DNA of 64,000 bases, from contig NZ_JAUASX010000009.1 of NCBI RefSeq assembly GCF_030345715.1, forward strand, positions 1 to 64,000, read 5' to 3'. Of the stretch, positions 15,801 to 59,621 are shown one piece after another. Source of the DNA: Solimonas sp. SE-A11 (GTDB taxonomy: Bacteria > Pseudomonadota > Gammaproteobacteria > Nevskiales > Nevskiaceae). The notes under the pieces were generated by a model that was not told where the DNA came from, did no database searches, and worked only from the letters and a program-made list of their open reading frames with translations. Positions within the stretch are counted from its first letter, which is position 1; every line of letters begins with the position of its first letter. The position numbers and the translations under genes are program-made.

Positions 15801-16807
15801 GCTGGCGCCAGGACTTCGTCCTCGCTCCCCGGATAGCACGCGCTATTGAGCCAGATGCCGCCCAGGCGGGTGGTGCAGAAGGAGCTGCTGGCCCAGCGCG
15901 AAGAGTTGACACGGCACTGGCTGCTGGTCCAGTTGGCGCTGTTGCCGGTCAGCGTGGTGCAGGCCGACTGGGTCGTGGGGGCGGTCAGTCGGCAATAGGT
16001 CGTACTGCCGGTGCCGGTGCCGCTGTAAGTTGCCGCGGTGCCGAGAACGGTGGAATTGCAGTTTCCTGAACCATAGGCGATGGCCGTCCCGACCGGTGCA
16101 GTCGAAATGGTGCCGCAAGTGGCCGTCTTGTTGCGGTCCGCGGTCAGCGTGGTATTCGGCGTGGTGGTCGTGGACGAGCGGCAGACGAAGGTCCCGGTCG
16201 GGATCGGCTGGAGACCTGTCAGGTCGACCGAGCCTGCCGCAGTACGGATATTCGGGTCCAGCCAAGCCTCGGTAGCCGAAGAGTCCGGGTACTGCGTGCC
16301 ATCCGACTTGTACCATGGCTGGTATCGGATTTCCGGGTTGTAGTAGACCGTGTTCCATGCCGACGAGCGCATGCGCGCGGAGATCAGATCCAAGGCACGA
16401 CAGTCGGCGAACTGGGTGTCAGGGCTGCAAACCGTGGTTGTGGAACTGGTTCGAAAATTGGGTCGGGTAGCGACCAGCTGTACGCCGTCACCGGACCCAC
16501 CATTGCCGAAGGTGGCATTGTCCAGCGGATGGAAAGTCGTTGACCAGCGAACCGCGTTGTTCGTGCTCCAGGAGGCAGCGTCGGGCATAAAGCGCCAGGC
16601 CATTGAGCCCGAATCGTCGAACGTGAACATGACGTTCGGCTTTGCGGGGTTCTCCGAACGGGTCAGGAGCGGTGACTGCGCCGGATCTGCCCATGCTGGA
16701 TTCAGTGCGGCGGCACCGAGCAGTGCAGCCAGCGCCGTTGCAGTTCGTAGGGGCGCGCGGTTGAGAAGGAACGAAGCTAAGCTGGAGCCGGTCTTCTGCG
16801 TGTTCAT
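12833..16807 (-). CDS. pilY1: Type IV pilus tip adhesin/assembly factor PilY1
   Basis: 1324 residues from MNTQKTGSSL, followed by a signal peptide ending near NPAWADP. A von Willebrand A-like segment starts with FTFDDSGSMAW, which holds the DxSxS metal site. The C-terminal half is the PilC-type beta-propeller (GGNDGMLHAFRDSDG, FGNGPNSNSG). A calcium-loop sequence DTNGDGYVNSSD lies near the C-terminus, like the site that controls retraction in Pseudomonas. The frame is open farther upstream but overlaps pilX; this ATG fits the signal peptide. The stretch at about residues 170-330 is rich in Thr and Ser with scattered Cys and is likely lineage-specific. Confidence 0.93.
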   Translation of the reverse strand: MNTQKTGSSLASFLLNRAPLRTATALAALLGAAALNPAWADPAQSPLLTRSENPAKPNVMFTFDDSGSMAWRFMPDAASWSTNNAVRWSTTFHPLDNATFGNGGSGDGVQLVATRPNFRTSSTTTVCSPDTQFADCRALDLISARMRSSAWNTVYYNPEIRYQPWYKSDGTQYPDSSATEAWLDPNIRTAAGSVDLTGLQPIPTGTFVCRSSTTTTPNTTLTADRNKTATCGTISTAPVGTAIAYGSGNCNSTVLGTAATYSGTGTGSTTYCRLTAPTTQSACTTLTGNSANWTSSQCRVNSSRWASSSFCTTRLGGIWLNSACYPGSEDEVLAPATYYEYVNGSTSTSEAQNYRRIRIMDYTTFTRGAGRTDCTISGSTSSCTQAQEYKNFANWFTYYRTRNYLSIASASRAFSEQGTELRVGYGRINKASSSIDSVATATIQRGVRTFTGNDRIAFFDWLHDVPASGGTPLRRAMDDVGKYYQRSDNRGPWGNTPGTDDGVAVNTHLQCRKSYHILMTDGFWNGDAASSTINGSNVDNVAGPTITGPNSQSYRYVKARPYQDASDSTTGTLADVAMYYWNRDLRTDLDNRVKPDAKNPAFWQHMVNFTVGLGVGGTLNYPDDIAGLQAGTKNWPVPVGDTSTAVDDLWHAAVNSRGEYLSAKDPDEFAASLSSILNEITVRNASEGGVAATAATLQAGNRKYVPEYKTAIWTGNLTAYELDQFGQQLSPIWNAAAALPAHGSRNIFVGTRNGTPKAETFTWTGMSAGVKADLPGATENLVNYLRGDATYEGGLYRERASRLGDFVNSQPVYVKSLVDMQYNFLPTGTAGRTTYKQFLTDKAARDGVVFIGGNDGMLHAFRDSDGREIFGFIPRILMQYLPALASTSYEHRFYVDGQLTESDAYLGGGWKNVLVGATGAGARAVFALDVTSTGTMNASNVLWEMDSTTQSELGYVMTPIEVGLMKNGQWAAVFGNGPNSNSGTAQLFIVNLQTGALISRIQASTATGNGLGGVRVIRDANRVIVGAYAGDLLGNVWKFDLASTSSGSWGVSFAGTPLFQASNTKPITAAPQYLAHPLGGYMVLVGTGKLYEEGDQATTAQQALYGLWDKQQLTVDGNGVASWATVTPADAQVLSSALANHAFNSTAINGPDGAIYYRLNTAPLNWATQRGWTLPLTIVAGHRNLLSPTFIFGFALFETMSPTTQGALNPCDDTGTGGAYNLLINPIDGTMPQTALFDTNGDGYVNSSDTIVAGYRGTWDGRDVVLTQKPCLNPDDCPPDPENRCEDGTKLVSVQSALGGNSNICVKLPPRERWWWRQIQQVPE

Positions 16808-26140: not shown

Positions 26141-26254
26141 AGCATTGCCGCGCTATGACATGCGGCAATGCTGGTGCTCGGGAGGTTAGAAACCGGCGAA
26201 AGACGGCGGGCGTATTTCCCCTTGCGGGGTCTTGTATTAGCCGCCCTCCCGAGC
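26141..26254 (-). ncRNA. C4/CI-like antisense immunity RNA in the primase leader
   Basis: On the minus strand an outer stem GCTCGGGAGG/CCTCCCGAGC (26245-26254 with 26176-26185) encloses a GGCGG/CCGCC pairing and the hairpin CCCCGCAAGGGG (26218-26229). A separate 11-bp hairpin AGCATTGCCGC/GCGGCAATGCT (26141-26172) follows, then the ribosome site of the first gene. The shape, the CCTCCCGAG words and the position in the leader of a primase operon agree with C4 RNAs of phages P1/P4, which repress by pairing with the leader and causing early termination. The promoter is probably within 26290-26400. Confidence 0.65.
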
Positions 26255-28525: not shown

Positions 28526-28632
28526 CTCGCGCCCCTATCTGCGCGCCCCTCGAAAAGCCGCGCCGCCAGGCCGGGAAGGGTTCCGGCTTTTTGCCCCGTC
28601 GGGCTAGGCGGGCGGGTTCGGTCAGCCCGTTT

Positions 28633-45455: not shown

Positions 45456-46033
45456 AGTCCGATGAAAATCTCGGCTCCCAGCCCCGGATGTTCAAAAGCT
45501 TGCCAGGGCTGACGGACTTGTTTGATGAGGGAATGAAGGAACTCTTGCGATTGCCGCTTGAGAAGCGACGGGAAATGGTTCTGGAGAGTGCCGCCGACCA
45601 CGTCGAGAGAATCAAGGGCAATTTGCCGCTGGCTCTTGCCGGACTTCTGTATCCGTGGTTGTCCAGGCGGTTGAGCGGGCCATTGCCGGCAGACGTGCTG
45701 AACAATCCTCCCGTCTATGAGGCATTTGCTATGGCGCTGGTGCAGGTCGCAGCCTGGGTGGCTGTTGCGGTAGGCCTTTGGGCCTTGTTCCTTGCAACTC
45801 TTGCACTGACTAGACGTCCCGCAGTGGGAATATGGGGCCACCGCGTTCTAGTTTCGTGCCCGGTCCTCCGGGCAATTCAGGCAATCGGGCTGGCAGCATT
45901 GCTAAGGTGGTCGTGCATGCAATCAAGGAGCGTCAATGCCAACAGTAAAATTCCAGTTCCGGCCCTCAAACCTGCGCGCGACCTCGCAGCATCTCAAGCG
46001 GGAGGCTGCCGCGAAGTTCGGGCGGAAATCTGA
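45452..46033 (+). CDS. Membrane-associated hypothetical protein
   Basis: 193 residues. One clear membrane region (AFAMALVQVAAWVAVAVGLWALFLATLAL) lies at about 90-120. The last 30 residues overlap the next gene in another frame and look less protein-like. Function is unknown. Confidence 0.55.
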   Translation: MKSDENLGSQPRMFKSLPGLTDLFDEGMKELLRLPLEKRREMVLESAADHVERIKGNLPLALAGLLYPWLSRRLSGPLPADVLNNPPVYEAFAMALVQVAAWVAVAVGLWALFLATLALTRRPAVGIWGHRVLVSCPVLRAIQAIGLAALLRWSCMQSRSVNANSKIPVPALKPARDLAASQAGGCREVRAEI

Positions 46034-46295
46034 CGCCGAGGTGGAGGACTTTCTGGTCGATGAAGCCGTGAAGATTTTCCTGGCTCGGCACGGAACCCAG
46101 AATCTCGATGCCGAGGCGATCAACGGAGAGGGGATTTCTCCCACCAACATCCTGTATCGCGGCCTGATCCCTGGTTTCAGCGTCGCCACCGAGGCGAGCG
46201 GGGGCATCATCAGGGAGGTTGAGTTGCCGAGGAACGGCTCCAGGAAGCCTGGCCCCACGTTCGTCGGTGTCGAATACTGGGTTTCCCTGGACTAG
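45936..46295 (+). CDS. Hypothetical ICE protein
   Basis: 119 residues with AAGGAG before the ATG. LKREAAAKFGRKSDAEVEDFLVDEAVKIFLARHGTQNLDAEAING is helical; the C-terminus (RKPGPTFVGVEYWVSLD) is beta-like. The 98-bp overlap with the previous gene is unusual. Confidence 0.55.
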   Translation: MPTVKFQFRPSNLRATSQHLKREAAAKFGRKSDAEVEDFLVDEAVKIFLARHGTQNLDAEAINGEGISPTNILYRGLIPGFSVATEASGGIIREVELPRNGSRKPGPTFVGVEYWVSLD

Positions 46296-46303
46296 TGAGG
46301 GCT

Positions 46304-46337
46304 GTCCAACGCCCGGTGCTTGCACCGGGCGTTGGAC
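46304..46337. other. Perfect 16-bp stem-loop starting the structured-leader module
   Basis: GTCCAACGCCCGGTGC pairs with its exact complement around a TT loop. There is no T-run. From here the region 46296-46679 is non-coding leader. Confidence 0.7.
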
Positions 46338-46368
46338 GTGCTAACCTAACTGTATTGATTTCACCCTG

Positions 46369-46442
46369 GCGACGTGGGCATCGTCGCACCCTGCAAAGCA
46401 GCTCCGGATCGGGTAGAGCTGCGAACCGTAAGGTTTCGATCC
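46369..46442 (+). ncRNA. Pseudoknot leader element, copy 1
   Basis: An entry hairpin GCGACG/CGTCGC (46369-46387) is followed by stem 1 GCAGCTC (46398-46404) with GAGCTGC (46416-46422) and the 11-nt loop CGGATCGGGTA. Next comes the hairpin AACC-GTAA-GGTT (46424-46435), then CGATCC (46437-46442), which can pair with GGATCG in the loop. The RBS-proximal hairpins GGGGA/TCCCC (46627-46641) and CTCCGGC/GCCGGAG stand before micro-protein 1. Confidence 0.75.
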
Positions 46443-46679
46443 GTCACTCTGTTGCAAGCTCTATCTGAGCGCACCTCCTGCTCGCGGTTCTGCAGGTTTC
46501 TCACCGGCCTTCCTGGCCTGTTTCTGATTCCACCGTCGCTTCCTCCTGATCGCTACTGCGACCGGGTCGGCGGCTTGTTGTTGCTGTTCCTTACACTTCC
46601 GTCGCGTTCTGCGACCCACCCAGCCGGGGATACGTTCCCCGTCAGGGGCGTACTCCGGCTTAAACGCCGGAGCACTGCC

Positions 46680-46760
46680 ATGTCTCATCTCTTCACCGTC
46701 AAGATGTTCGGTCTGTACCTCGTCACCTCCCAGCTGCTCGCCCTTGTGGTGGCACGCTGA
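46680..46760 (+). CDS. Hydrophobic micro-protein 1
   Basis: 26 residues, MSHLFTVKMFGLYLVTS then QLLALVVAR. It is one membrane span with a short N-terminus. It matches micro-protein 2 in TVK-x8-SQ-x-LA-x2-V spacing. A GGAG site lies nine bases upstream. A longer in-frame open stretch reaches back to 46374, but it crosses the pseudoknot and has no protein character. Confidence 0.6.
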   Translation: MSHLFTVKMFGLYLVTSQLLALVVAR

Positions 46761-46792
46761 TTCTTTGGTCCCGCGCCGGTGTATCGGCTGCG

Positions 46793-46835
46793 GGGCCTTC
46801 ACCAAGCGGCCGTCCTGGCTGCTTGGTGAAGGCCC
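46793..46835. other. Perfect 15-bp hairpin between the micro-protein genes
   Basis: GGGCCTTCACCAAGC (46793-46807) and its exact complement (46821-46835) enclose 13 nt. It probably stabilises or separates the two short messages. Confidence 0.7.
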
Positions 46836-46873
46836 TGTAGCCCTCATCCACCAACCGGAACCGGAGTAAGACG

Positions 46874-46957
46874 ATGTCTATCCTGACTGTGAAGAACCTC
46901 ATCCTCTGCGTCCTGGTCTCCCAGGTCCTGGCCGTGGCCGTCACCATGCACGCCTGA
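46874..46957 (+). CDS. Hydrophobic micro-protein 2
   Basis: 27 residues, MSILTVKNLILCVLVSQ then VLAVAVTMHA. A GGAG site lies eight bases before the ATG. It is a single-span peptide, clearly related to micro-protein 1. Such peptides can be type I toxins, small membrane-enzyme regulators or leader products; nothing here decides between these. Confidence 0.6.
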   Translation: MSILTVKNLILCVLVSQVLAVAVTMHA

Positions 46958-46984
46958 GGCAAGCGCATGAGGTATGAACAGACG

Positions 46985-47121
46985 CCGTGAAAGCGGCGTC
47001 TTCCTGGAGGGCCTCGCCCGAGGTCCTGCAGGAAGACGGTTTTTCCCGTGTCGACTGCGGTTCAGTCGAAAGAAGTAGCTTCGGATCAGGCAGAGCTGCG
47101 CGATCACAAGATCGTTGGTCC
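46985..47121 (+). ncRNA. Pseudoknot leader element, copy 2
   Basis: Hairpins GACGCC/GGCGTC and a long TTCCT/AGGAA stem precede ACGG...CCGT and the entry hairpin CGACTG-CGGTT-CAGTCG (47052-47068). Stem 1 is GTAGCTT (47075-47081) with GAGCTGC (47093-47099); the loop is CGGATCAGGCA. The hairpin CGATC-ACAA-GATCG (47101-47114) follows. TGGTCC (47116-47121) pairs with GGATCA in the loop, with one wobble. It leads the DUF3577 gene. Confidence 0.8.
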
Positions 47122-47230
47122 TTTTTCCCTCACGCGAAGTCACATTCGCACCATCCCGCCGGGGTATGTCCGCCCCGTCAGGGTCGGCATTTCTCCTGCG
47201 ACGTTGTTTTCAACTTAACTCTCAGGAGAG

Positions 47231-47722
47231 ATGTCCATGTCCACCAATGTCACCAATGCTGTTTCGTCCAACACCGCCGGCAACGGCGCGAAGTACTTCG
47301 ACCTCCACACCACTGGCGTCGGTTATCTGAACCGTCCCCGTGAGGTGAAGCTGAAGAAGGGTAGCTTCCTCGCCGTCGACGTGTCCGCCCTGCGCGGCTC
47401 GGCCGATGACGTGGAATACACCCGCTTCGATTGCCGCGTCAGCGGTGAAGAAGCTCAGGCTGTGATCCGCAATCTGCAGGCGGACATCGACGCGAAGAAG
47501 AAGGTCATCGTGGGATTTCGGATCGGCGACATCTACGCCGAGCCGTTCACCTACGAGTCCGGTGAAAAGAAGGGCCAGACGGGGGTTTCCCTGAAAGGCC
47601 GTCTGCTGTTCATCCAGTGGGCCAAGGTCGACGGTGTCTCCGTCTACCAGGCGCCCCGCCAGGATGAGCCGACACCGGATGCTTCGTCCGTCGCTCCGTT
47701 CGAAGAGCCGGCCACGGCCTAA
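47231..47722 (+). CDS. DUF3577 (STY4534-type) ICE protein
   Basis: 163 residues. NRPREVKLKKGSFLAVDVSALRGSADDVEYTRFDCRVSGEEA is typical of this conserved ICE family. It is named a replication-associated protein, and the fold looks like a single-strand-binding OB barrel. A structured leader with a ribosome site AGGAGAG stands before the ATG. Confidence 0.85.
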   Translation: MSMSTNVTNAVSSNTAGNGAKYFDLHTTGVGYLNRPREVKLKKGSFLAVDVSALRGSADDVEYTRFDCRVSGEEAQAVIRNLQADIDAKKKVIVGFRIGDIYAEPFTYESGEKKGQTGVSLKGRLLFIQWAKVDGVSVYQAPRQDEPTPDASSVAPFEEPATA

Positions 47723-47728
47723 ACCACA

Positions 47729-47766
47729 CTGCCGACGCGGAAGGGTCTCCCTTCCGCGTCTGGCAG
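47729..47766. other. Long intercistronic hairpin
   Basis: CTGCC plus ACGCGGAAGGG pair with CCCTTCCGCGT plus GGCAG around a 3-nt loop. It separates the DUF3577 gene from the next. Confidence 0.7.
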
Positions 47767-47784
47767 TTCCTTCCAGGAGCTTCC

Positions 47785-48228
47785 ATGAAGATTCAAGACA
47801 TGCTGCAACTGCTGGCCGGTTTCCCGGCCGATGCTGATCTGAGCATCTTGCTCAGTGCCAACGGCACGGAAATGAGCCTCACCAGCCTCCAGGCAGGCTT
47901 TTCCGTGGCGCCGGGGACTGAGGAGGTTGTTCCCGCGAAGGCGGTCTCTGTCGGCCTCTACGAGCCCGAGCCCGAGGGCGAGAAGCACTTTGACGACCAA
48001 ATCCGTCTGGGTATCCCGGACGAGCTGGTCGACTTTTGTGCCAGGTATCAGGTCAAGCCCGAGGAACTGTTGCACGGCTTCATTGCCGACCTCTGCGGGA
48101 TCCGCAACCTGGCTTCCAACCCCAGGGCGGATGGCCTGAGCTCTAACGGCTCTGACGAGCGTGATATGGCCTGGGCCTGGTTCGACCGGGCCGGGTACAC
48201 ATGGAGAAACGGCGGCGAAGCAGCGTAA
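47785..48228 (+). CDS. Hypothetical ICE protein
   Basis: 147 residues. The first half (IQDMLQLLAGFPADADLSILLSANGTEMSLTSL) is a small alpha/beta region. The second half (PDELVDFCARYQVKPEELLHGFIADLCGIRNL) resembles a helical DNA- or protein-binding module. AGGAG lies before the start. No family is recognised. Confidence 0.65.
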   Translation: MKIQDMLQLLAGFPADADLSILLSANGTEMSLTSLQAGFSVAPGTEEVVPAKAVSVGLYEPEPEGEKHFDDQIRLGIPDELVDFCARYQVKPEELLHGFIADLCGIRNLASNPRADGLSSNGSDERDMAWAWFDRAGYTWRNGGEAA

Positions 48229-48249
48229 AATTGCGGTATTGCGCCAGGC

Positions 48250-48402
48250 CGTAGCCTGGCGTCTTCCTCAAGGGGGTAGGTGCCTCTTTGAGGAAGACGG
48301 TTTCACCCGTGGCGACTGCGGTTCAGTCGCGCCCTGCAGGCTCGTCCTGCATGAAGCGGATCCGGTTCGGGAAGATCCGCGGGGTCGAAAGACCATCGAA
48401 CC
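48250..48402 (+). ncRNA. Pseudoknot leader element, copy 3
   Basis: Hairpins GCCAGG/CCTGGC and CGTCTTCCTCAA/TTTGAGGAAGACG come first, then ACGG...CCGT and GCGACTG-CGGTT-CAGTCGC (48312-48330). An extra TGCAGG/CCTGCA hairpin is inserted. Stem 1 is GCGGATC/GATCCGC (48356-48362, 48374-48380), loop CGGTTCGGGAA. The hairpin GGTC-GAAA-GACC follows. CGAACC (48397-48402) pairs with GGTTCG. All three helices differ from copy 1 but keep pairing. It leads the DUF3275 gene. Confidence 0.82.
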
Positions 48403-48582
48403 TTTAGTCCCCTGATTATAACTAGGGCTCTCCGACAGGGGCTTCACCGCGTTCCGGTGCGTGAACTGGGACGTCTTCAACTCCGCCGGTAACTCTGTTA
48501 CCGGCATCTACAATGCCCTGGCGGGTCTCCCGCCCGGGGGCGCGCTTTGCCAGGGATTTTCCATCCAACCGCAAGGTGCGTC

Positions 48583-49179
48583 ATGTCCCTCTTCAAACTC
48601 AGTGGTGTTCTCACAATCCGCGCGATCAACGGGTCGCGCGGCACGTTCAACGTAGGCCGGTTAATCACTCCCATCGGTGACTTCGCAGTGAAGTCGCCGG
48701 CGATCGAGGAGTACGAGCCCGGCAAATACGAGGGTGAGTTCGGAGTATCCCGAATCTATCCCTCGCACTACTTCGCCCATGGGCGCCTGGTTGTGGAGGT
48801 TCGTGCGGACGTCGCGTCGATTGCGCTGGCGTCGATCGCCGATCTTCCCACGGAGGACCAGGCCCCGATGGAGGAGCAGGATCCGGCGAGCGAGAAGCTC
48901 ACGCCGCCTGCGCCTGCCGCGACCCCGGTGGAACCTCAGACCCCGGTGGCTGCGGACGCGGAATCCGCGGTAGAAGCTCGTGCCCCTGCAGGGGGGGTCG
49001 CCTCGGCGATCCCAGCGGAGAAGTCCTTCCAGGACCTCTTCGGCGAGCTCTGGCCGCTACAGGACAGGGTGAAGCTGGATCCCACCGTCGACCGGATGCA
49101 GTTCCGCGCACAGCGGGACGCGCTGAAGGAGATGGGGTATCGCTTCCAGCCCTTGGGTCAGGTCTGGGAGAAGGCCTAG
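48583..49179 (+). CDS. DUF3275 ICE protein
   Basis: 198 residues, starting MSLFKLSGVLTIRAINGSRGTFNVGRLITPIGDF, and with GKYEGEFGVSRIYPSHYFAHGRLVVEVRADV, the family pattern. A Pro/Ala-rich linker leads to a C-terminal helical piece (FGELWPLQDRVKLDPTVDR). The family is constant in this ICE class; the role is unknown. Confidence 0.8.
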   Translation: MSLFKLSGVLTIRAINGSRGTFNVGRLITPIGDFAVKSPAIEEYEPGKYEGEFGVSRIYPSHYFAHGRLVVEVRADVASIALASIADLPTEDQAPMEEQDPASEKLTPPAPAATPVEPQTPVAADAESAVEARAPAGGVASAIPAEKSFQDLFGELWPLQDRVKLDPTVDRMQFRAQRDALKEMGYRFQPLGQVWEKA

Positions 49180-49617
49180 CGCCTTCTGCCGATGGGGTGA
49201 ATCCCCATCGGCCTTCCCGGAGTGCTCAGGTGAGCGCTGCGGGAAGGCCGATGGTCTTCGTTCACCTCACCGGTTGCTCGCCGCCGGTGACCGGGCGAAG
49301 CCCCTTTGTACGGCTGATAACCGTGCCCGATGACTTGCTGAACCCATGCGCCCCGAACTGATGGGTTGAAGCGCGCGAGGTGACCCAACGGGAAGGTCAC
49401 CGGCGGCGCCTTCTGAGGGGCAAAGCCTCATACACGCATGACCGGCACATTCACGCACTCGGCCGGCGGCAGGAAGTAGCAACGCCGTTGTCCGGCTGCG
49501 CCGCGACAGCGTGAGTCGAACCAGGCTCCGCGCGCGGTATGGCGCGGGGCTTACCGATGGACGCCGCCAGGTGCCCATCGGTAAGCCTTCCGTGAGGAGG
49601 CCCCACTTGCAAACGAA

Positions 49618-49661
49618 CCGCCTCGGATCGGGAAGGGCGGAAGGTCGCAGGACCTCGATCC
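49618..49661 (+). ncRNA. Pseudoknot element, copy 4
   Basis: Stem 1 CCGCCT (49618-49623) pairs with GGGCGG (49635-49640); loop CGGATCGGGAA. The hairpin AGGTC-GCAG-GACCT follows. CGATCC (49656-49661) pairs with GGATCG. No CGACTG entry hairpin is seen immediately before it, unlike the other copies. Confidence 0.72.
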
Positions 49662-49907
49662 TCATATGCAATCACGGCCCAGGGCCTGCTTTTCACAATC
49701 AGACAGGGAATCGTCCAGCTGCGTCAGGCAACGCGGTTGGCGGCGCCGGCGGAACTCGCCGCCGGCGGTGTCGGGGATCACGTCAAAGCAGTGTGTCGCT
49801 GCGACAGACGTGATTGGAATGCGCCGGCCGGTGAAACACTCCGGCCGTCTTCCATCCTTTTCCGGGAGGCTCTCGTGCGAGCCTGCCGAAAGAGGGTGTT
49901 ACCCGTG

Positions 49908-49981
49908 CGACTGCGGTCCAGTCGAGCCCTTTAAGCAGCTGCGGTTTCGGTAGCGCTGCGCGATCGAAAGATCGTGAAACC
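49908..49981 (+). ncRNA. Pseudoknot element, copy 5
   Basis: The entry hairpin is CGACTG-CGGTC-CAGTCG (49908-49924). Stem 1 GCAGC/GCTGC has two unpaired bases at its top; loop CGGTTTCGGTA. The hairpin CGATC-GAAA-GATCG follows. GAAACC (49976-49981) pairs with GGTTTC. The pseudoknot strand and loop have changed together relative to the other copies. Confidence 0.78.
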
Positions 49982-50080
49982 CCTTGTACACGTCAGGCCA
50001 TTCGTGGCCTTCACCCACCGGTCGGGAATGCACGTTCCTGACCGGAACGTGCTGCTCCGGCTTTCTCCAGGAGTTGCACG

Positions 50081-50269
50081 ATGGTGAACTACCTCGACCT
50101 GAAGTACCTGGTCAAAGTAGAGAAGGACCTGCGTGCGGCAGCTGATGACCCTCAGCTGGCGCCGCAGATCAAGGCCTACCTTGATGCCAATCCTGATGTC
50201 CGGGATGAACTGGCCGATGTCTATGTGCGCGCCTTGCGCACCATGGAACGCCAGCAGAACGCAGGCTAA
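50081..50269 (+). CDS. Small helical hypothetical protein
   Basis: 62 residues (MVNYLDLKYLVKVEKDLRAA...). It is likely all-helical and acidic. AGGAG is present before the ATG. It is the only gene behind the 900-nt leader and ends at a strong terminator. Confidence 0.55.
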   Translation: MVNYLDLKYLVKVEKDLRAAADDPQLAPQIKAYLDANPDVRDELADVYVRALRTMERQQNAG

Positions 50270-50283
50270 AACCTGCATCCACT

Positions 50284-50320
50284 CTGTCAGTCAGGTCAGC
50301 CTTCGTTGCTGACCTGACTG
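50284..50320. terminator. Terminator between convergent genes
   Basis: A 14-bp stem (TCAGTCAGGTCAGC with its complement) around CTTCGTT. On the plus strand it is followed by TGGGGTTTTT. It overlaps the end of the minus-strand gene and probably stops both directions. Confidence 0.75.
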
Positions 50321-50742
50321 ATGGGGTTTTTGAGCTCCGCCCAATCGGGCGCGCCGAGGATGGCAGTTCGGAGCTTCAGCAGCGCAGCGATGCGACCAGG
50401 CTGAAGCAGCGAGCGCAGGCTGTCCTCTGCAGAGTCTTCACCCGGGGCGTCTGCACTTGCCCCTAGTTGTCCTTCACGAGAATCCGGTCGTTCGCTCCTG
50501 CTGGTCGGGGAGCTAGCACGGTCGGATGCTTCGAGTATGTCGCTGACGGACTGGTCGATCAGGCCACGGATCAGCTGCTCCTCGGGAGTGTTCCCGGGAT
50601 ACAGCAGCTTCTGTTGTTCTGCGAAGCGACGCAGACCCTCCGGTGTTCGCACACCGGCGGGTATCGCGTCGCACCAGTAGCCGATGCGGCGTCGATCTAG
50701 ATCAGTGAGCCGGATTTTCCCGGTGCTAGTGTCAGTCAACAT
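50296..50742 (-). CDS. Minus-strand ICE protein
   Basis: 148 residues from MLTDTSTGKIRLTDLDRRRIGYWCDAIPAG; a TTG at 50757 is an alternative that would overlap the previous stop. The N-terminal half is well structured (GLRRFAEQQKLLYPGNTPEEQLIRGLIDQ); the centre is Ser/Glu-rich. It forms a two-gene unit against the operon direction. No family is recognised. Confidence 0.6.
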   Translation of the reverse strand: MLTDTSTGKIRLTDLDRRRIGYWCDAIPAGVRTPEGLRRFAEQQKLLYPGNTPEEQLIRGLIDQSVSDILEASDRASSPTSRSERPDSREGQLGASADAPGEDSAEDSLRSLLQPGRIAALLKLRTAILGAPDWAELKNPISQVSNEG

Positions 50743-50753
50743 CGACTGCGTCC

Positions 50754-50978
50754 TCAATGCGTCTGCTGTAGGGGCGGGGCTTCGCTCTGTACCGTGTCGC
50801 GTAAGCGCTGCAAGGCATCTTCGCGTCCTGGCGAACCGAGGACTCGGACGCCAGCGACGATTGCGGCATGAAACTCTTCTGCCGGAAGCGGCTGGTCGGG
50901 TTTCTTTCCTGCCAGCTCCAAAAGCAGTCTTTCAACTTCAGACGCCGCAAGCGTCAGCTTTTCGACTTTGATCGCCAC
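50754..50978 (-). CDS. Small minus-strand protein
   Basis: 74 residues from a GTG start with GGGAG seven bases before it. It is helical (VEKLTLAASEVERLLLELAGKK). It is the first gene of the minus-strand pair and divergent from 51091. Perhaps it is a regulator. Confidence 0.55.
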   Translation of the reverse strand: MAIKVEKLTLAASEVERLLLELAGKKPDQPLPAEEFHAAIVAGVRVLGSPGREDALQRLRDTVQSEAPPLQQTH

Positions 50979-51023
50979 GTTCCACTCCCTGTGAGAAGGC
51001 AGCGTTGGCGAGTGTACCTCAAC

Positions 51024-51050
51024 CCCGCCGGGGACATCCCCGGCAGGGGC
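51024..51050 (+). promoter_or_regulatory. RBS-proximal hairpin of the leader type
   Basis: GCCGGGG-ACAT-CCCCGGC (51027-51044) then AGGGGCG. The same GCCGGGG...CCCC(G)...AGGGGCG arrangement occurs before micro-protein 1, the DUF3577 gene and the gene at 53171, so these genes share a leader feature even where no pseudoknot is seen. Confidence 0.55.
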
Positions 51051-51090
51051 GTGTCTTCCGGAAACCTTCAATTGTCACAAGGAGATTCCC

Positions 51091-51438
51091 ATGGAAGTCA
51101 CGTTCTTGCAGTGGAAGTGCCAGGCAGTGTTCGGGAAGTACCGCAACGGCCGTATCGCCATCCAGCTCGTCGCCGCCGGCGATGCATCTGGGGACGTGGA
51201 GGTCATGTGTGGTGAGCCCATCGCTACTGCCACGGTCAATGTCGACCGTATTGCCCTCGAAGCCGACGAGGTCCTGATCAAGGACTACGCCGAGAACGAG
51301 GGCATGTCGGATGCGCTGGTCGCGGCTGGCTTGGTGCAGCCCTTGCTCAAGGTCATTCACATCGGCGGCTTCCAGGCGCAGTGCGCCATTGGTCGCCTGA
51401 CGCCCACGGCCCTCCAGGCTGCGGGCCTCGCTCACTAG
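51091..51438 (+). CDS. Hypothetical ICE protein
   Basis: 115 residues. The first half is beta-rich (FGKYRNGRIAIQLVAAGDASGDVEVMCGEPIATATVNV). The second half (VLIKDYAENEGMSDALVAAGLVQP) follows the pattern of DUF4313-like small proteins, but I am not certain. AGGAG precedes the ATG. Confidence 0.6.
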   Translation: MEVTFLQWKCQAVFGKYRNGRIAIQLVAAGDASGDVEVMCGEPIATATVNVDRIALEADEVLIKDYAENEGMSDALVAAGLVQPLLKVIHIGGFQAQCAIGRLTPTALQAAGLAH

Positions 51439-51512
51439 CTGTTCCTACCTCAACCCCGGCCGGGACTCGATCCCGCCGGGGTCGAGGTCTCCGGCCTCTG
51501 CTGGAGATCCTC

Positions 51513-51800
51513 ATGCCTCAAACCTTCAAACCGGGCCGCTTCCGCGGCTACGAGTTGTCCCCCGTCGTGGAAGTGCCCGGCGAGGGTCTCGTCCCCCAGC
51601 AGTCGCTCGAAGCGGCGGAGGCGCTGTCGGACCGGGTCATCTGGTCGCTGTACGGCCACCTCCCGGAGGGCGGCGTCAGCATCGTGGGCGACTTCGATGA
51701 CTACGCCGCCGCGGCAGAAACCTACTCGCGCATCACTGGCCTGGTCGTCCCGGAGAACCTGGACGGCCGCCGGCTGCTTCGCTTGCCACCGGGTCCCTGA
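51513..51800 (+). CDS. Small hypothetical ICE protein
   Basis: 95 residues from MPQTFKPGRFRGYELSP, with GGAG before this ATG. IWSLYGHLPEGGVSIVGDFDDYAAAAETYSRITG is the best-formed part. An earlier in-frame ATG lies inside the previous gene and was rejected. Confidence 0.6.
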   Translation: MPQTFKPGRFRGYELSPVVEVPGEGLVPQQSLEAAEALSDRVIWSLYGHLPEGGVSIVGDFDDYAAAAETYSRITGLVVPENLDGRRLLRLPPGP

Positions 51801-51845
51801 CCTGTTCCACCTCGAGGGAAACCTCTTACCACCACGGAGGCCACT

Positions 51846-52943
51846 ATGGCTCTGATGTTCCAGCGCCTGGCGCGCAATTTCATCAAGAACGGGTATTTCC
51901 CGACCGACGCGGAGACCACTTCGCGCATCCTGTCCGCCATCGAGCCTGCAGCTGCAGGGGAGATGCGGATCCTTGACCCCTGCTGTGGCGAGGGCGTGGC
52001 GCTGGCCGAGGTGCGCGAGCACCTGGGGCCGACGCAGACCGAGGCCTTCGGCGTCGAGTACGACGAGGAGCGTGCCTGGCACAGCAAGCAGCTGCTGGAC
52101 CGCTGCATCCATGGGAACTTCCAGGAAGTGATCGTGGGGCGGCGGCAGTTCGGGTTGCTTTGGCTCAATCCGCCTTACGGCGATCTGGTTGCCGATCGCT
52201 CGGGCGTCACCGAGGACCGTTCCGGCCGGAAGCGGCTGGAGAAGGTCTTCTACCAACTGGCCTATCCGCTGTTGGTGTTCGGCGGTGTCCTGGTGCTGAT
52301 CGTCCCGCACTACGTCCTGGATCGGGAGTTCTCGACCTGGCTATCCATGCACTTCGACAACCTCAGGGTGTACCGAGCACCGGAGCAGCGGTTCAAGCAG
52401 GTCGTGGTACTCGGCGTGCGCCGACGTACCTCAGATGCCATCGCCTCGGCCGAGGCGCGCAAGCGGCTGGAGTCCGCCGGCGCCGGCGAGGACCTGCAGG
52501 AGCTGCCCGAGCGCTGGTGCGAGGGCTACTACCGGGTGCCGGCCACACCGGGCGAAGCGAAGTTCGCCCTGGGTGTGGTCGAGCCGCGGCAGTTGGCGAA
52601 CGAGATCTCGCGGATGCCGACGCTGTGGGACCAGTTCGAGCTGCGCTTTGCGCATGCCGAGCAGGCTCATCGCCGGCCGCTGCGCGGGCTTTCGCGCTGG
52701 CACCTGGCGCTGGCCCTGGCCGCGGGCCAGGTCTCCGGCGAGGTGCGATCGGCCGATGGCCGCGTGTACGTGGTCAAAGGCGACACCCACAAGGAGAAGG
52801 TGGCCAAGGTCGAAGTGGAGGAGGGAGACAACGGCTCGATGCGCGAGGTGAGGATCCTCACGGATCGTTTCGTTCCGACGATCCGCGCGATCGACTTCAC
52901 ACCTACGTCACCGACCTTCGGCCGCGTGCTGACGATTCGGTGA
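51846..52943 (+). CDS. DNA N6-adenine-type methyltransferase (DUF6094)
   Basis: 365 residues. SAM-binding motif I is LDPCCGEG, the acidic residue follows in GVEYDEER, and the catalytic motif IV is NPPYGD (Asn-Pro-Pro-Tyr). The C-terminal part may hold target recognition. It has no restriction partner next to it, so an orphan enzyme of the ICE is likely, perhaps for protection on entry. It lies in the replication block with DUF3275 and the helicase. Confidence 0.8.
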   Translation: MALMFQRLARNFIKNGYFPTDAETTSRILSAIEPAAAGEMRILDPCCGEGVALAEVREHLGPTQTEAFGVEYDEERAWHSKQLLDRCIHGNFQEVIVGRRQFGLLWLNPPYGDLVADRSGVTEDRSGRKRLEKVFYQLAYPLLVFGGVLVLIVPHYVLDREFSTWLSMHFDNLRVYRAPEQRFKQVVVLGVRRRTSDAIASAEARKRLESAGAGEDLQELPERWCEGYYRVPATPGEAKFALGVVEPRQLANEISRMPTLWDQFELRFAHAEQAHRRPLRGLSRWHLALALAAGQVSGEVRSADGRVYVVKGDTHKEKVAKVEVEEGDNGSMREVRILTDRFVPTIRAIDFTPTSPTFGRVLTIR

Positions 52944-52974
52944 AGCTGTCCTTGGCGCCGCGCATCTGCGCGGC

Positions 52975-53086
52975 GTCTTTCCAGAGCGCCTCACGCTGTG
53001 GAAAGACGGTTCCCACCGTGGCGACTGCGGTTCAGTCGCAAGCAGCTCCGGATCGGGGAGAGCTGCGGGCCGCAAGGCCTCGATCC
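52975..53086 (+). ncRNA. Pseudoknot leader element, copy 6
   Basis: The ACGG...CCGT hairpin and GCGACTG-CGGTT-CAGTCGC (53021-53039) precede stem 1 GCAGCTC/GAGCTGC (53042-53048, 53060-53066) with loop CGGATCGGGGA. The hairpin GGCC-GCAA-GGCC follows. CGATCC (53081-53086) pairs with GGATCG. A CCGGG/CCCGG hairpin and the ribosome site then lead the gene at 53171. Confidence 0.82.
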
Positions 53087-53170
53087 TTGTTCCATGTCGG
53101 CCCTCACAGGCCATTCCCTGCCGGGGATCTCCCGGTAGGGAGCTCTCCGGCCTTCACGAAGGAGAGTCGT

Positions 53171-53614
53171 ATGTCTCAAGAAGCAGATAGCGGCCGGAAG
53201 TCCGGCCCCCAGCCGGATTCCATTTTCGGGCCGGTGGTCTTCAGTTACACCCGGGCACAGGCCCTCGCGGATGGCGTCCTGGTGGATGTCTCTTCCACGG
53301 CGGTCGAAGCCGGTTTCAGGTTCCCGGTCGCGGTCACGGAGGCGGTCTGGAAGGACTGCATCGAGTGGTCGGAGGCGGATAGCCAGCGACAGGTCCACCA
53401 GGACCAGTCCGGCCGGCTCTGGGATGTGCTGTTCATGGCGTATATCGCGGTCCGGACCAATCCCACGGTCCAAGGCTTCATCAACTACGGGATCGTCCGT
53501 GTTCCGAGGGACGGGCTTACCCGTCGCCCGAAGAGAGTCGAGCTCAAGCTCGTGCTTTCCGGCGGCGATCAGGGCGAGCCCGTGCTCACGATCATGCAGC
53601 CGCATGAGGACTGA
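53171..53614 (+). CDS. DUF6573-like ICE protein
   Basis: 147 residues. SIFGPVVFSYTRAQALADGVLVDVSSTAVEAGFRFPVAVTEAVW is the core of this family of element proteins. AAGGAGAG precedes the ATG, which follows the sixth pseudoknot leader. Function is unknown. Confidence 0.7.
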   Translation: MSQEADSGRKSGPQPDSIFGPVVFSYTRAQALADGVLVDVSSTAVEAGFRFPVAVTEAVWKDCIEWSEADSQRQVHQDQSGRLWDVLFMAYIAVRTNPTVQGFINYGIVRVPRDGLTRRPKRVELKLVLSGGDQGEPVLTIMQPHED

Positions 53615-53675
53615 GAGGCGCGCGGGCGGGGCTGACGGCCTCGCCCGCATTCCAAACTCGACATGGAGGTTCACG

Positions 53676-54335
53676 ATGTCCATTGAAACCAAGCCGGCGT
53701 CGCCGGCGGCGGCACCCCTGATGGAGTTGGTCGAAGCGCCTGGGCTGTTCGCCGATGCGCTGCTGACCGACGAAAGAGGCGGGCTACTGTTCATTTCGCT
53801 GTGGGGCCGCGACACCGCGGTGCAGGAGTTCCTGGCCAGACTCTCGGTCGATGTGTCCGAGGGCGGCCTGCGGACCCTGCATGTCGAGGGTCCGGCAGGT
53901 CGCGTCCAGGTTCATTTCGACCGGATGCCGAGCCTGGAGAAGCACACCGGGCGCCTGCCGCCCAGGAACCTCTTCGGGGACCTGGTGCAGCTGTGGATCC
54001 ACGACAAGCTGGCGACGGAGCCCGACAGGGCCAACCGGCGCGCGCTGCTGCTGCACAGGCCGCGCTTGAGTCGTCATGATGCGACGGACGCCTGTCTGTG
54101 GGGCCTGGTGCGAGAGGTTTGCCATATCCCTTTGCTGGAGGGATGGCGGCAGCCCGTACTGACGCTGTTGGAACTGCACGGCTGGCTAACCCCGATTCCA
54201 GGCATCGGCATCGATGCTTGGCGCCTGGAACTCGGGAATCCACGGCTCGATGCGGAAATCTCCCAGATGATCCGGGGAGGGGTGCTGCAGTTGTCGGGAA
54301 ACGCTGCACAGGGCGGGATGGCCAGGTTGGCCTGA
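53676..54335 (+). CDS. Hypothetical ICE protein
   Basis: 219 residues from MSIETKPASPAAAP, with GGAGG upstream. LLFISLWGRDTAVQEFLARLSVDVSEGG and GDLVQLWIHDKLATEPDRANRRALLLHRPRLS are well formed. No domain is recognised. It is preceded by a GCGGGCG/CGCCCGC hairpin (53625-53649). Confidence 0.6.
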   Translation: MSIETKPASPAAAPLMELVEAPGLFADALLTDERGGLLFISLWGRDTAVQEFLARLSVDVSEGGLRTLHVEGPAGRVQVHFDRMPSLEKHTGRLPPRNLFGDLVQLWIHDKLATEPDRANRRALLLHRPRLSRHDATDACLWGLVREVCHIPLLEGWRQPVLTLLELHGWLTPIPGIGIDAWRLELGNPRLDAEISQMIRGGVLQLSGNAAQGGMARLA

Positions 54336-54444
54336 TGTAAACGCCGCGCAAGCGGCATCGCTGTACTTAACGACCCGACGGGGCATGCGCCCTGTCCAGG
54401 GCCGTGCTCCGTCGGTTCTTCAACCAACCGATAGGAGTTTCACG

Positions 54445-58973: not shown

Positions 58974-59621
58974 TCAGCGTTGCCCCAGTGCCCGCGCCCG
59001 CACCAGGCCGCAATAGACTCCTATAAGCTGGATGGCATCTCGGTTGCCCATGAATGTCATCGGCGCGAACCGCTGCTGGTCATCGTTTTCAGAGAGCAGT
59101 GAGATCCTGCCTCCACTACGCCGTAGAGTCTTGAGCGTAAGCTCCGGATCGTTGGTCTTTGCGTGGGTGATGACGGCGGCCACGATCTGTCCGTTCTGAA
59201 CGGAGTCCTGCAGGTGGATGCCGACCAGGTCGCCGTCATGGATACCGGCATTGATCATCGACTCGCCGGACACCCGGAACAATAGGTCTGCCGGCGGATC
59301 GAACAGCTTCGGCGACACGTCGATGTAGTCAGCTACATGCTCTCCAGACGTGACCGGGGCGCCCGCCGCGATGCGGCCGATAAGCGGCACCTGCATCGAC
59401 TTCGCGGCGACCTGCGAGGTTAGCCGAATCGAACGCCGGCTCCCAGGCTGCCTCGACAGCTCGCCGCGCGCTGCGAGTTTACCGAGCAGCTTCGCGGCAT
59501 TGGCCGGAGTAAAGCGGAAATGTTCTGCAATCTCGTAGATCGTCGGGCTTCTGCCTTCGGAAGCCTGATAGTCCCTTAGGAACTCCAGAACAGCAGCTTG
59601 CCGCGGAGGGAGGTCGGCCAT
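58974..59621 (-). CDS. lexA: LexA-like SOS repressor
   Basis: 215 residues. The N-terminal HTH is EGRSPTIYEIAEHFRFTPANAAKLLGKLAARGELS. The self-cleavage site is RIAAGAPV (Ala-Gly). The catalytic Ser lies in RVSGESMINAGIHDGD and the Lys in ELTLKTLRR. It is therefore likely RecA-inducible. The HTH differs from canonical LexA, so the operator may differ. It is divergent from the DUF5131-TcmP genes and overlies a likely operator at 59642-59661. Confidence 0.92.
   Translation of the reverse strand: MADLPPRQAAVLEFLRDYQASEGRSPTIYEIAEHFRFTPANAAKLLGKLAARGELSRQPGSRRSIRLTSQVAAKSMQVPLIGRIAAGAPVTSGEHVADYIDVSPKLFDPPADLLFRVSGESMINAGIHDGDLVGIHLQDSVQNGQIVAAVITHAKTNDPELTLKTLRRSGGRISLLSENDDQQRFAPMTFMGNRDAIQLIGVYCGLVRARALGQR

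Follow-up and report, generated by a model that had tools for sequence, protein, structure and literature searches.

A covarying pseudoknot repeated in the leaders of an integrative and conjugative element appears to be a single-unit relative of radC RNA

radC RNA typically stands before mobile-element genes, among them radC itself, integrases and methyltransferases. Together with STAXI it was described in 2010 from sequence alone (Weinberg et al. 2010); in the portion of that paper available to us a table lists radC as an RNA (Y) that is probably cis-regulatory (y), with a question mark for a switch function, and STAXI is presented as a pseudoknot repeated two or three times. Excerpts from Rivas (2020; PMC7657543) place radC (RF01754) among RNAs with differing Rfam and ZWD structures that miss covarying pairs, to which CaCoFold adds pairs. 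According to the text at hand from PMC535899, the mRNA leader of gene 32 in phage T4 contains a pseudoknot that nucleates binding of the single-strand-binding protein, which blocks translation. Among the papers listed by our literature searches there was no functional study of radC RNA or STAXI; on structured leaders of integrative and conjugative elements (ICEs), only general riboswitch and RNA-motif papers were among the matches listed, none of five terms for leaders or small RNAs occurs in one ICEclc transcriptome paper, and the available parts of papers on ICEclc regulation treat transcriptional control. Here we describe a repeated pseudoknot in a 64,000-nt stretch ("the window") on contig NZ_JAUASX010000009.1 of the 4.94-Mb genome of Solimonas sp. 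SE-A11. Between about 30 and 57 kb lie the core genes of an SPI-7/ICEclc-type ICE: one cluster, by which such elements are recognized, encodes ParA, DUF2857, SSB, TopB (topoisomerase III) and STY4534 (DUF3577), and the region also encodes DUF3275, DUF6094, DUF6573 and an SNF2-type helicase.

The original prediction had named six sites in this ICE that would fold alike, and all six are present where it placed them, on the + strand, which is the strand of the genes. Each is an H-type pseudoknot enclosing a hairpin: stem A, loop strand B, A', hairpin C/C' and strand B', which pairs with B. The unpaired loop bases are conserved as a C at the 5' end and GGNA at the 3' end. The six units are as follows (bit scores are those of covariance model R2, described below):

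46398 to 46442, + strand: pseudoknot unit, copy 1; stem GCAGCTC/GAGCTGC, pseudoknot GGATCG/CGATCC; 64.1 bits
47075 to 47121, + strand: pseudoknot unit, copy 2; pseudoknot GGATCA/TGGTCC; 64.4 bits
48356 to 48402, + strand: pseudoknot unit, copy 3; pseudoknot GGTTCG/CGAACC; 62.9 bits
49618 to 49661, + strand: pseudoknot unit, copy 4; no entry hairpin seen by eye; 58.5 bits
49935 to 49981, + strand: pseudoknot unit, copy 5; pseudoknot GGTTTC/GAAACC; 51.6 bits
53042 to 53086, + strand: pseudoknot unit, copy 6; pseudoknot GGATCG/CGATCC; 69.4 bits

Copies 4 and 5 are the nearest pair, with starts 317 nt apart. A strict search, which required the loop CGGNTNNGGNA, five or more stem pairs adjoining it, a 6-nt pseudoknot strand and a hairpin with no fewer than 4 bp, recovered five of the six copies on the + strand and nothing on the - strand. 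When the whole window was shuffled 100 times with dinucleotide content preserved, the strict motif came up once on the two strands together. Copy 5 fails the strict form because two loop-adjoining stem pairs are mismatched; the outer 5 bp of its stem, its hairpin and its pseudoknot are intact. The loop pattern alone is common in the window (ten occurrences on the + strand, four on the - strand), and the architecture is not rare when sequence is left unconstrained, giving 325 overlapping raw matches. The pairings of the six copies change together, as had been claimed: 97.1% of cells are paired vs 82.3% in shuffles, and 9 of the 17 pairs show change on both sides vs 2.9 in shuffles. Pairing of the six copies also beats that of slid controls.

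To follow the motif beyond the window, we used a covariance model of the six copies (R1) and a second model made from 21 matches (R2), both with the pseudoknot pairs left out. Of 58 genomes of the family, four besides the window genome contained strong R1 matches. At E 1e-4, and with the window genome included, R2 matched 5 of the 85 genomes from the order, 5 of 369 in a class sample and 1 of 398 in a phylum sample, so that the phylum sample gave no match beyond the window genome (67, 15 and about 14 candidates, respectively, were scored per genome). The five positive class-sample genomes carry 6, 6, 7, 5 and 7 copies. The search of other genomes that had been proposed at the outset finds relatives: R2 gave 46 matches, 37 of them distinct, in 15 sources, namely the window and 14 outside loci, one labelled Gemmatimonadetes and the others Gammaproteobacteria by label or sampling. 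Across these 46 matches 96.8% of 620 cells are paired vs 78.6% in shuffles, and the covariation score is 0.544, compared with 0.185 for shuffles and no more than 0.11 for slid controls. Both-sided change is seen in 12 of the 17 pairs, four of them among the six pairs of the pseudoknot helix; that helix, with 95.5% of its cells paired, covaries although no search model contained its pairs.

Several weaker candidates were set aside. Low-scoring R1 matches in five loci (L046-L050) were judged by eye to be chance, as was a match that recurs around position 15840 of ICEclc-type loci, differs little between several of them and reads as coding; the low R2 matches L097:18887 and L064:19606 are probably chance too. 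As a separate observation, the locus labelled Gemmatimonadetes (L061, from a metagenome-assembled genome, MAG) holds an ICE segment of proteobacterial type, and its contig may be mis-binned.

We asked which strand folds by comparing G.U with A.C cells at paired positions. G.U cells outnumber A.C cells by 35 to 6 in the window-type units, by 41 to 10 in the entry hairpin and first unit of radC RNA, and by 7 to 2 in the second radC unit. Folding of the antisense strand would favour A.C over G.U, and the large excess of G.U therefore indicates that the sense strand folds, which fits an mRNA. The same counts bear on the idea that the units act as folded single-stranded DNA (ssDNA) in conjugative transfer or replication, for instance as single-strand promoters or protein-loading sites. 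Weinberg et al. (2010), in the text available, raised this for STAXI, and it would suit a set of genes that handle DNA and whose lead gene, DUF3577, encodes a protein with a predicted SSB-type fold. The G.U excess in all three sets argues that the template strand, which a single-strand promoter would need, is probably not the folding strand, and many leaders fold over the ribosome site, which points to mRNA. We therefore hold the ssDNA explanation to be unlikely.

The position of the units is that of leaders. For this comparison 31 of 52 units were chosen by hand (a convincing open reading frame, ORF, at an offset of 60-240 nt, near-duplicates in L044 omitted); the distance from unit end to start codon is 66-233 nt in these 31 leaders and 66-120 nt in 27 of them. 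A stem of at least 6 pairs at the ribosome site was found in 14 of the 31, vs 10.6% of 3,100 shuffles, and one of at least 5 pairs in 19, vs 28% of shuffles. The leader hairpin near the ribosome site noticed in the original prediction can indeed be seen by eye in several leaders. Its broader proposal, a cis-regulatory RNA or a set of attenuators, divides at this point. A cis-acting family of ICE leader RNAs is well supported; intrinsic attenuators are not, the region holding 4 terminator-like sites, one of them on copy 2, vs 5.4 expected. Promoter-like sites are likewise not above chance. Long hairpins just upstream of several units are what attenuators or put-like antitermination sites might look like, and with this terminator count we consider such sites very unlikely.

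The genes behind the units encode DUF3577, DUF3275, DUF6573, an SNF2-type helicase, RadC, DUF932 and DUF4942, as well as a CCDC90-like protein whose match lies below the Pfam cut-off. RadC genes follow units in L178, L044 and L061, the units being weak in the last two (11.7 and 23.5 bits); the DUF4942 gene follows units in L177, and in L042 two units lie 5' of an Integrase_1 gene. Unit-bearing loci also carry ICE genes, except L042 (integrase) and L177 (DUF4942 gene). Some elements hold identical copies (L177:1221, 3388 and 5845), as a functionless, decaying repeat family spread by duplication would leave behind. Paired changes in all three helices, and the recurrence of units at the same gene slots when elements from distant hosts are compared, speak against such decay and make it extremely improbable.

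The slot before DUF3577 allowed a test that does not depend on unit sequence. A sequence-free finder of pseudoknot units was applied to the 330 nt before DUF3577 in 39 of 80 loci (40 were listed, one of which was too short). It scored at least 40 in 24 of the 39 leaders vs 4 of 195 shuffles, and at least 44 in 20 of them, many of these loci being mutually related and not independent. Window pieces from outside the leader region reached the same two thresholds in 24 and 2 of 340 cases, pieces of the same loci taken inside or well upstream of the gene in 5 and 3 of 78, and leaders read on the antisense strand in 3 and 0 of 39. In several leaders where the finder had no match an upstream ORF adjoins DUF3577 directly, so the unit may sit further up; one such locus (L068) has a radC RNA at 9450. 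Units of other sequence stand before DUF3577 in a Litchfieldella locus (L075, score 48.7) and a Methylococcaceae MAG (L087, 52.7), while L077, L078, L085 and L100 score 39 to 44, close to background. R1 and R2 reported no units at these six Halomonas-type and Methylococcaceae ICEs, and RF01754 gave one sub-threshold match (G068) in four variant-unit genomes (G068, G069, G071, G078).

DUF3577 itself is a possible partner for these leaders. Its predicted model has an oligonucleotide-binding (OB) fold of the SSB/PriB type (mean pLDDT 78.5, pTM 0.63), with a best Z of 9.4 to 4dam_H over 102 aligned residues (root-mean-square deviation 3.2) and a Foldseek E of 4.7e-4 (TM 0.37/0.51); a sequence search of the PDB with DUF3577 returned nothing useful. 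Of the 9 genomes that have R2 matches, 8 encode the protein. The ninth case, G024, is without DUF3577 yet carries two units before an integrase gene, which counts against DUF3577 as the only factor; as sole trans-acting factor we therefore set it aside.

Searching Rfam had been named beforehand as a test that could refute a new motif, and no described family matches by model score: run on the leader region, no model matches the units, even at E 10. RF01754 in particular has no match in the window at its gathering score, none up to E 10 in 45900-54400 and 47040-47235, and none at E 0.001 in the entire window genome. The STAXI model (RF01728) matches L056 and L057 and has no match in the window, the window genome or the control genomes. 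In the fluoride riboswitch (crcB) the loop of a stem-loop pairs beyond the following hairpin, much as in our units; its model, RF01734, has no match in the window or the leader region, and both its loop bases and the genes around it are different. Binding of a small molecule, as by a riboswitch, would suit a compact pseudoknot with conserved unpaired loop bases. The genes behind the units have no evident metabolite in common, nearly all the loci hold ICE genes, and together with the crcB result this makes a small-molecule sensor decidedly unlikely.

RF01754 and the window-type units nevertheless occupy the same positions in different genomes. RF01754 is above cut-off in 15 of the 34 genomes searched (entries covering 29 of the 80 DUF3577 loci, and five more), and at E 0.001 it was found in none of the ten entries that carry window-type units (G054 and G058 among them represent a single genome). 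In Pseudomonas aeruginosa, P. veronii and Enterobacter ludwigii the STY4534 gene has radC RNA upstream of it, at 4, 2 and 4 copies within 18 kb, respectively; STAXI holds the STY4534 slot in a Citrobacter plasmid and about 700 nt away also lies upstream of an integrase gene. The window-type units, too, stand before RadC and Integrase_1 genes. Since related elements hold radC RNA and STAXI in the same slots, it would go too far to call the motif wholly new.

We then examined radC RNA itself in an alignment of 44 sequences, comprising 34 of 70 genome-search rows (loci with sequence at hand) and 10 from the slot loci. It consists of two tandem pseudoknot units after an entry hairpin (sequences in L051-L053, L065, L068, L071, L083, L093, L094, L112, L121, L122, L124, L131, L133 and L136). 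In unit 1 the first-stem loop is complementary to a strand that follows the next hairpin, with 94.4% of cells paired and both-sided change in 3 of 4 pairs. The full form of unit 2 is present in 36 of the 44 sequences vs 35 of 440 shuffles; in 16 of the 19 Pseudomonas-type rows (three were set aside for a one-column shift) its pseudoknot is paired in 100% of cells, with double change in 4 of 6 pairs. The cmscan structure lines for RF01754 show neither pseudoknot, and given the excerpts from Rivas 2020 (PMC7657543) these pseudoknots may not be new.

Direct similarity between the two types is slight and runs one way. With R2, radC unit 2 in L071 (the same sequence occurs in L082) scores 24.6 bits, E 0.0047, and an apparent radC unit 1 in L069 scores 21.3 bits, E 0.035; two Pseudomonas loci (L109, L091) also yield related units, whose pseudoknot is GCTCCG/CGGAGC. 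In the other direction, a model of radC unit 1 (R3, from 25 of 38 distinct segments) places copies 6 and 1 of the window at ranks 22 and 23 of 85, with scores of only 8.2 and 8.0 bits, and lists none of the other four window copies nor any unit in other loci. Because the radC unit 1 model misses the window copies, we do not file them as radC RNA. Like the window type, radC RNA has an entry hairpin followed by an A-B-A'-C-C'-B' pseudoknot, occurs in several copies per ICE and stands before the same genes (DUF3577, RadC); unlike it, radC RNA has two tandem units, where each window leader has one. Judging from topology, loop form, gene slots and the weak one-way similarity, on which the kinship rests, the window copies look like a divergent single-unit variant of the same kind as radC RNA.

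Our preferred reading, which we regard as moderately probable, is that the units are a shared mRNA leader through which one trans-acting factor coordinates the translation of DNA-processing operons. The leader, presumably transcribed, has an entry hairpin, the H-type pseudoknot and a G+C-rich hairpin, followed last, in about half of the leaders tested, by a short hairpin over the ribosome-binding site. The same core precedes several separate operons of one ICE, mainly of DNA-handling genes, and would serve as a common recognition site; a single factor bound there would set the translation (or stability) of these mRNAs together, in response to a signal common to all leaders. A role for DUF3577 like that of T4 gp32 is possible by analogy, from its SSB-type fold and with G024 as the one counterexample.

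Several observations weigh against this reading. The folding energies are ordinary (z-scores from +0.76 to -0.92, computed without the pseudoknot), so the support comes from covariation and not from stability, and the covariation counts ignore phylogeny, the copies of one element being related. The narrow range of start-codon distances is partly selection, because the leaders were picked by hand, and the integrase gene of L042 starts about 500 nt behind the nearer unit. No 5-pair stem at the ribosome site was found in 12 of the 31 leaders. Folding of the sense strand is also compatible with a role of that strand as ssDNA. Finally, in the window copy 4 has no gene of its own and no convincing ORF before copy 5, and may be a relic of a lost gene. 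If one factor does act on all units, they would form a post-transcriptional switch of conjugation in a common element family. The two-unit radC RNA, the apparently similar topology of STAXI and the single-unit relatives together offer a common object to test, and point to the leaders of ICE DNA-processing operons as the place to look.

The leaders and genes around the six copies comprise the following features:

46369 to 46387, + strand: variant entry hairpin of copy 1 (GCGACG...CGTCGC), from reading the sequence; paired in the minimum free energy fold
46680 to 46760, + strand: 26-aa hydrophobic ORF after copy 1; a relative lies behind a unit in G237 (L175:5156)
47052 to 47068, + strand: entry hairpin of copy 2, exact sequence search
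47192 to 47229, + strand: hairpin over the ribosome-binding site of the DUF3577 gene (TCTCCTG/CAGGAGA), by eye; the scan gave a shorter 5-bp form
47231 to 47722, + strand: DUF3577 / STY4534-family ICE replication protein, first gene after copy 2 (Pfam PF12101, NF040584)
48313 to 48329, + strand: entry hairpin of copy 3, exact sequence search
48583 to 49179, + strand: DUF3275 protein, first gene after copy 3 (Pfam PF11679)
49908 to 49924, + strand: entry hairpin of copy 5, exact sequence search
50081 to 50269, + strand: 62-aa ORF after copy 5
53022 to 53038, + strand: entry hairpin of copy 6, exact sequence search
53115 to 53141, + strand: G+C-rich hairpin (TCCCTGCCGGG/CCCGGTAGGGA) of the copy 6 leader, close to the ribosome site, by eye
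53142 to 53167, + strand: hairpin over the ribosome-binding site in the copy 6 leader (GCTCTCC/GGAGAGT), found by the scan
53171 to 53614, + strand: DUF6573 protein, first gene after copy 6 (Pfam PF20213)

The entry hairpin said to be common to four copies is exact at copies 2, 3, 5 and 6, and this sequence (CGACTGCGGTYCAGTCG) occurs only 5' of these four in the entire genome; a form similar to the copy 1 variant is found 5' of some units in L043 and L044. The claim that all copies stand before element genes holds for the same four. Copy 4 has no convincing ORF, and copy 1 precedes two tiny hydrophobic ORFs, the 26-aa ORF listed above and a second of 27 aa at 46874-46957 that is related to it in sequence. 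A 27-aa relative of these ORFs lies behind a unit in a distant ICE (L175 after 5208, which is L153:1116), so the two may be real small proteins.

Other hairpins were noted in the same region. A G+C-rich hairpin of the form GCCGGGG...CCCCGNCAGGGG lies before the ribosome site, by eye, at 46630-46652, 51018-51050 and 51449-51482; it is found as well before ICE genes that lack an immediately preceding pseudoknot unit, and Pseudomonas ICEs have it too. The spaces between ICE genes contain long near-perfect hairpins at 46304-46337, 46786-46842, 46997-47038, 48260-48299, 49205-49254 and 52974-53008. Several of them are just upstream of units, and the terminator scan flagged none. A LexA-like S24 peptidase repressor is encoded near the ICE genes at 58974-59621 (- strand). 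Elsewhere in the window are sRNA-Xcc1 (26168-26254), an int-alpA RNA (28547-28614) and a tRNA-Pro (746-819), all on the - strand.

We return to the described systems for comparison. STAXI can be read as having its parts in the same order as the window type, with a 12-nt loop of the form N[6-nt pseudoknot strand]TGTGA in both loci: a unit in L056, which has two, reads GTTCC-G[GCAGTC]TGTGA-GGAGC-hairpin-GACTGC, and the single unit in L057 reads GATTC-A[GTAGCC]TGTGA-GAATC-hairpin-GGCTAC. By score alone this A-B-A'-C-C'-B' reading is within chance, as 19.5% of shuffles reach 15 pairs in one unit and 10% have two units of at least 13 pairs; the published account of STAXI as a repeated pseudoknot agrees with it. 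STAXI differs from the window type in its tandem units and its sequence, the window units being single. In the available text of PMC12370729, STAXI RNA was detected by real-time polymerase chain reaction in vesicles of one E. coli strain; outside support that such motifs exist as RNA comes, in the sources at hand, from STAXI only.

The comparison with phage T4 allows a wider conjecture, which we think unlikely: radC RNA, STAXI, the single-unit form and the Halomonas-type and Methylococcaceae variants would be one superfamily of pseudoknot operators of proteobacterial ICEs, bound by DUF3577, which would repress a DNA-processing regulon until ssDNA from excision or transfer titrates it away, as with T4 gp32. 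The likeness to T4 lies in a leader pseudoknot before the gene for a single-stranded-DNA-binding protein, DUF3577 having a predicted SSB-type fold. T4 has one small pseudoknot, one gene and a less structured ribosome site, whereas the ICE places its units before several operons, with a structured downstream leader, and binding is here only proposed.

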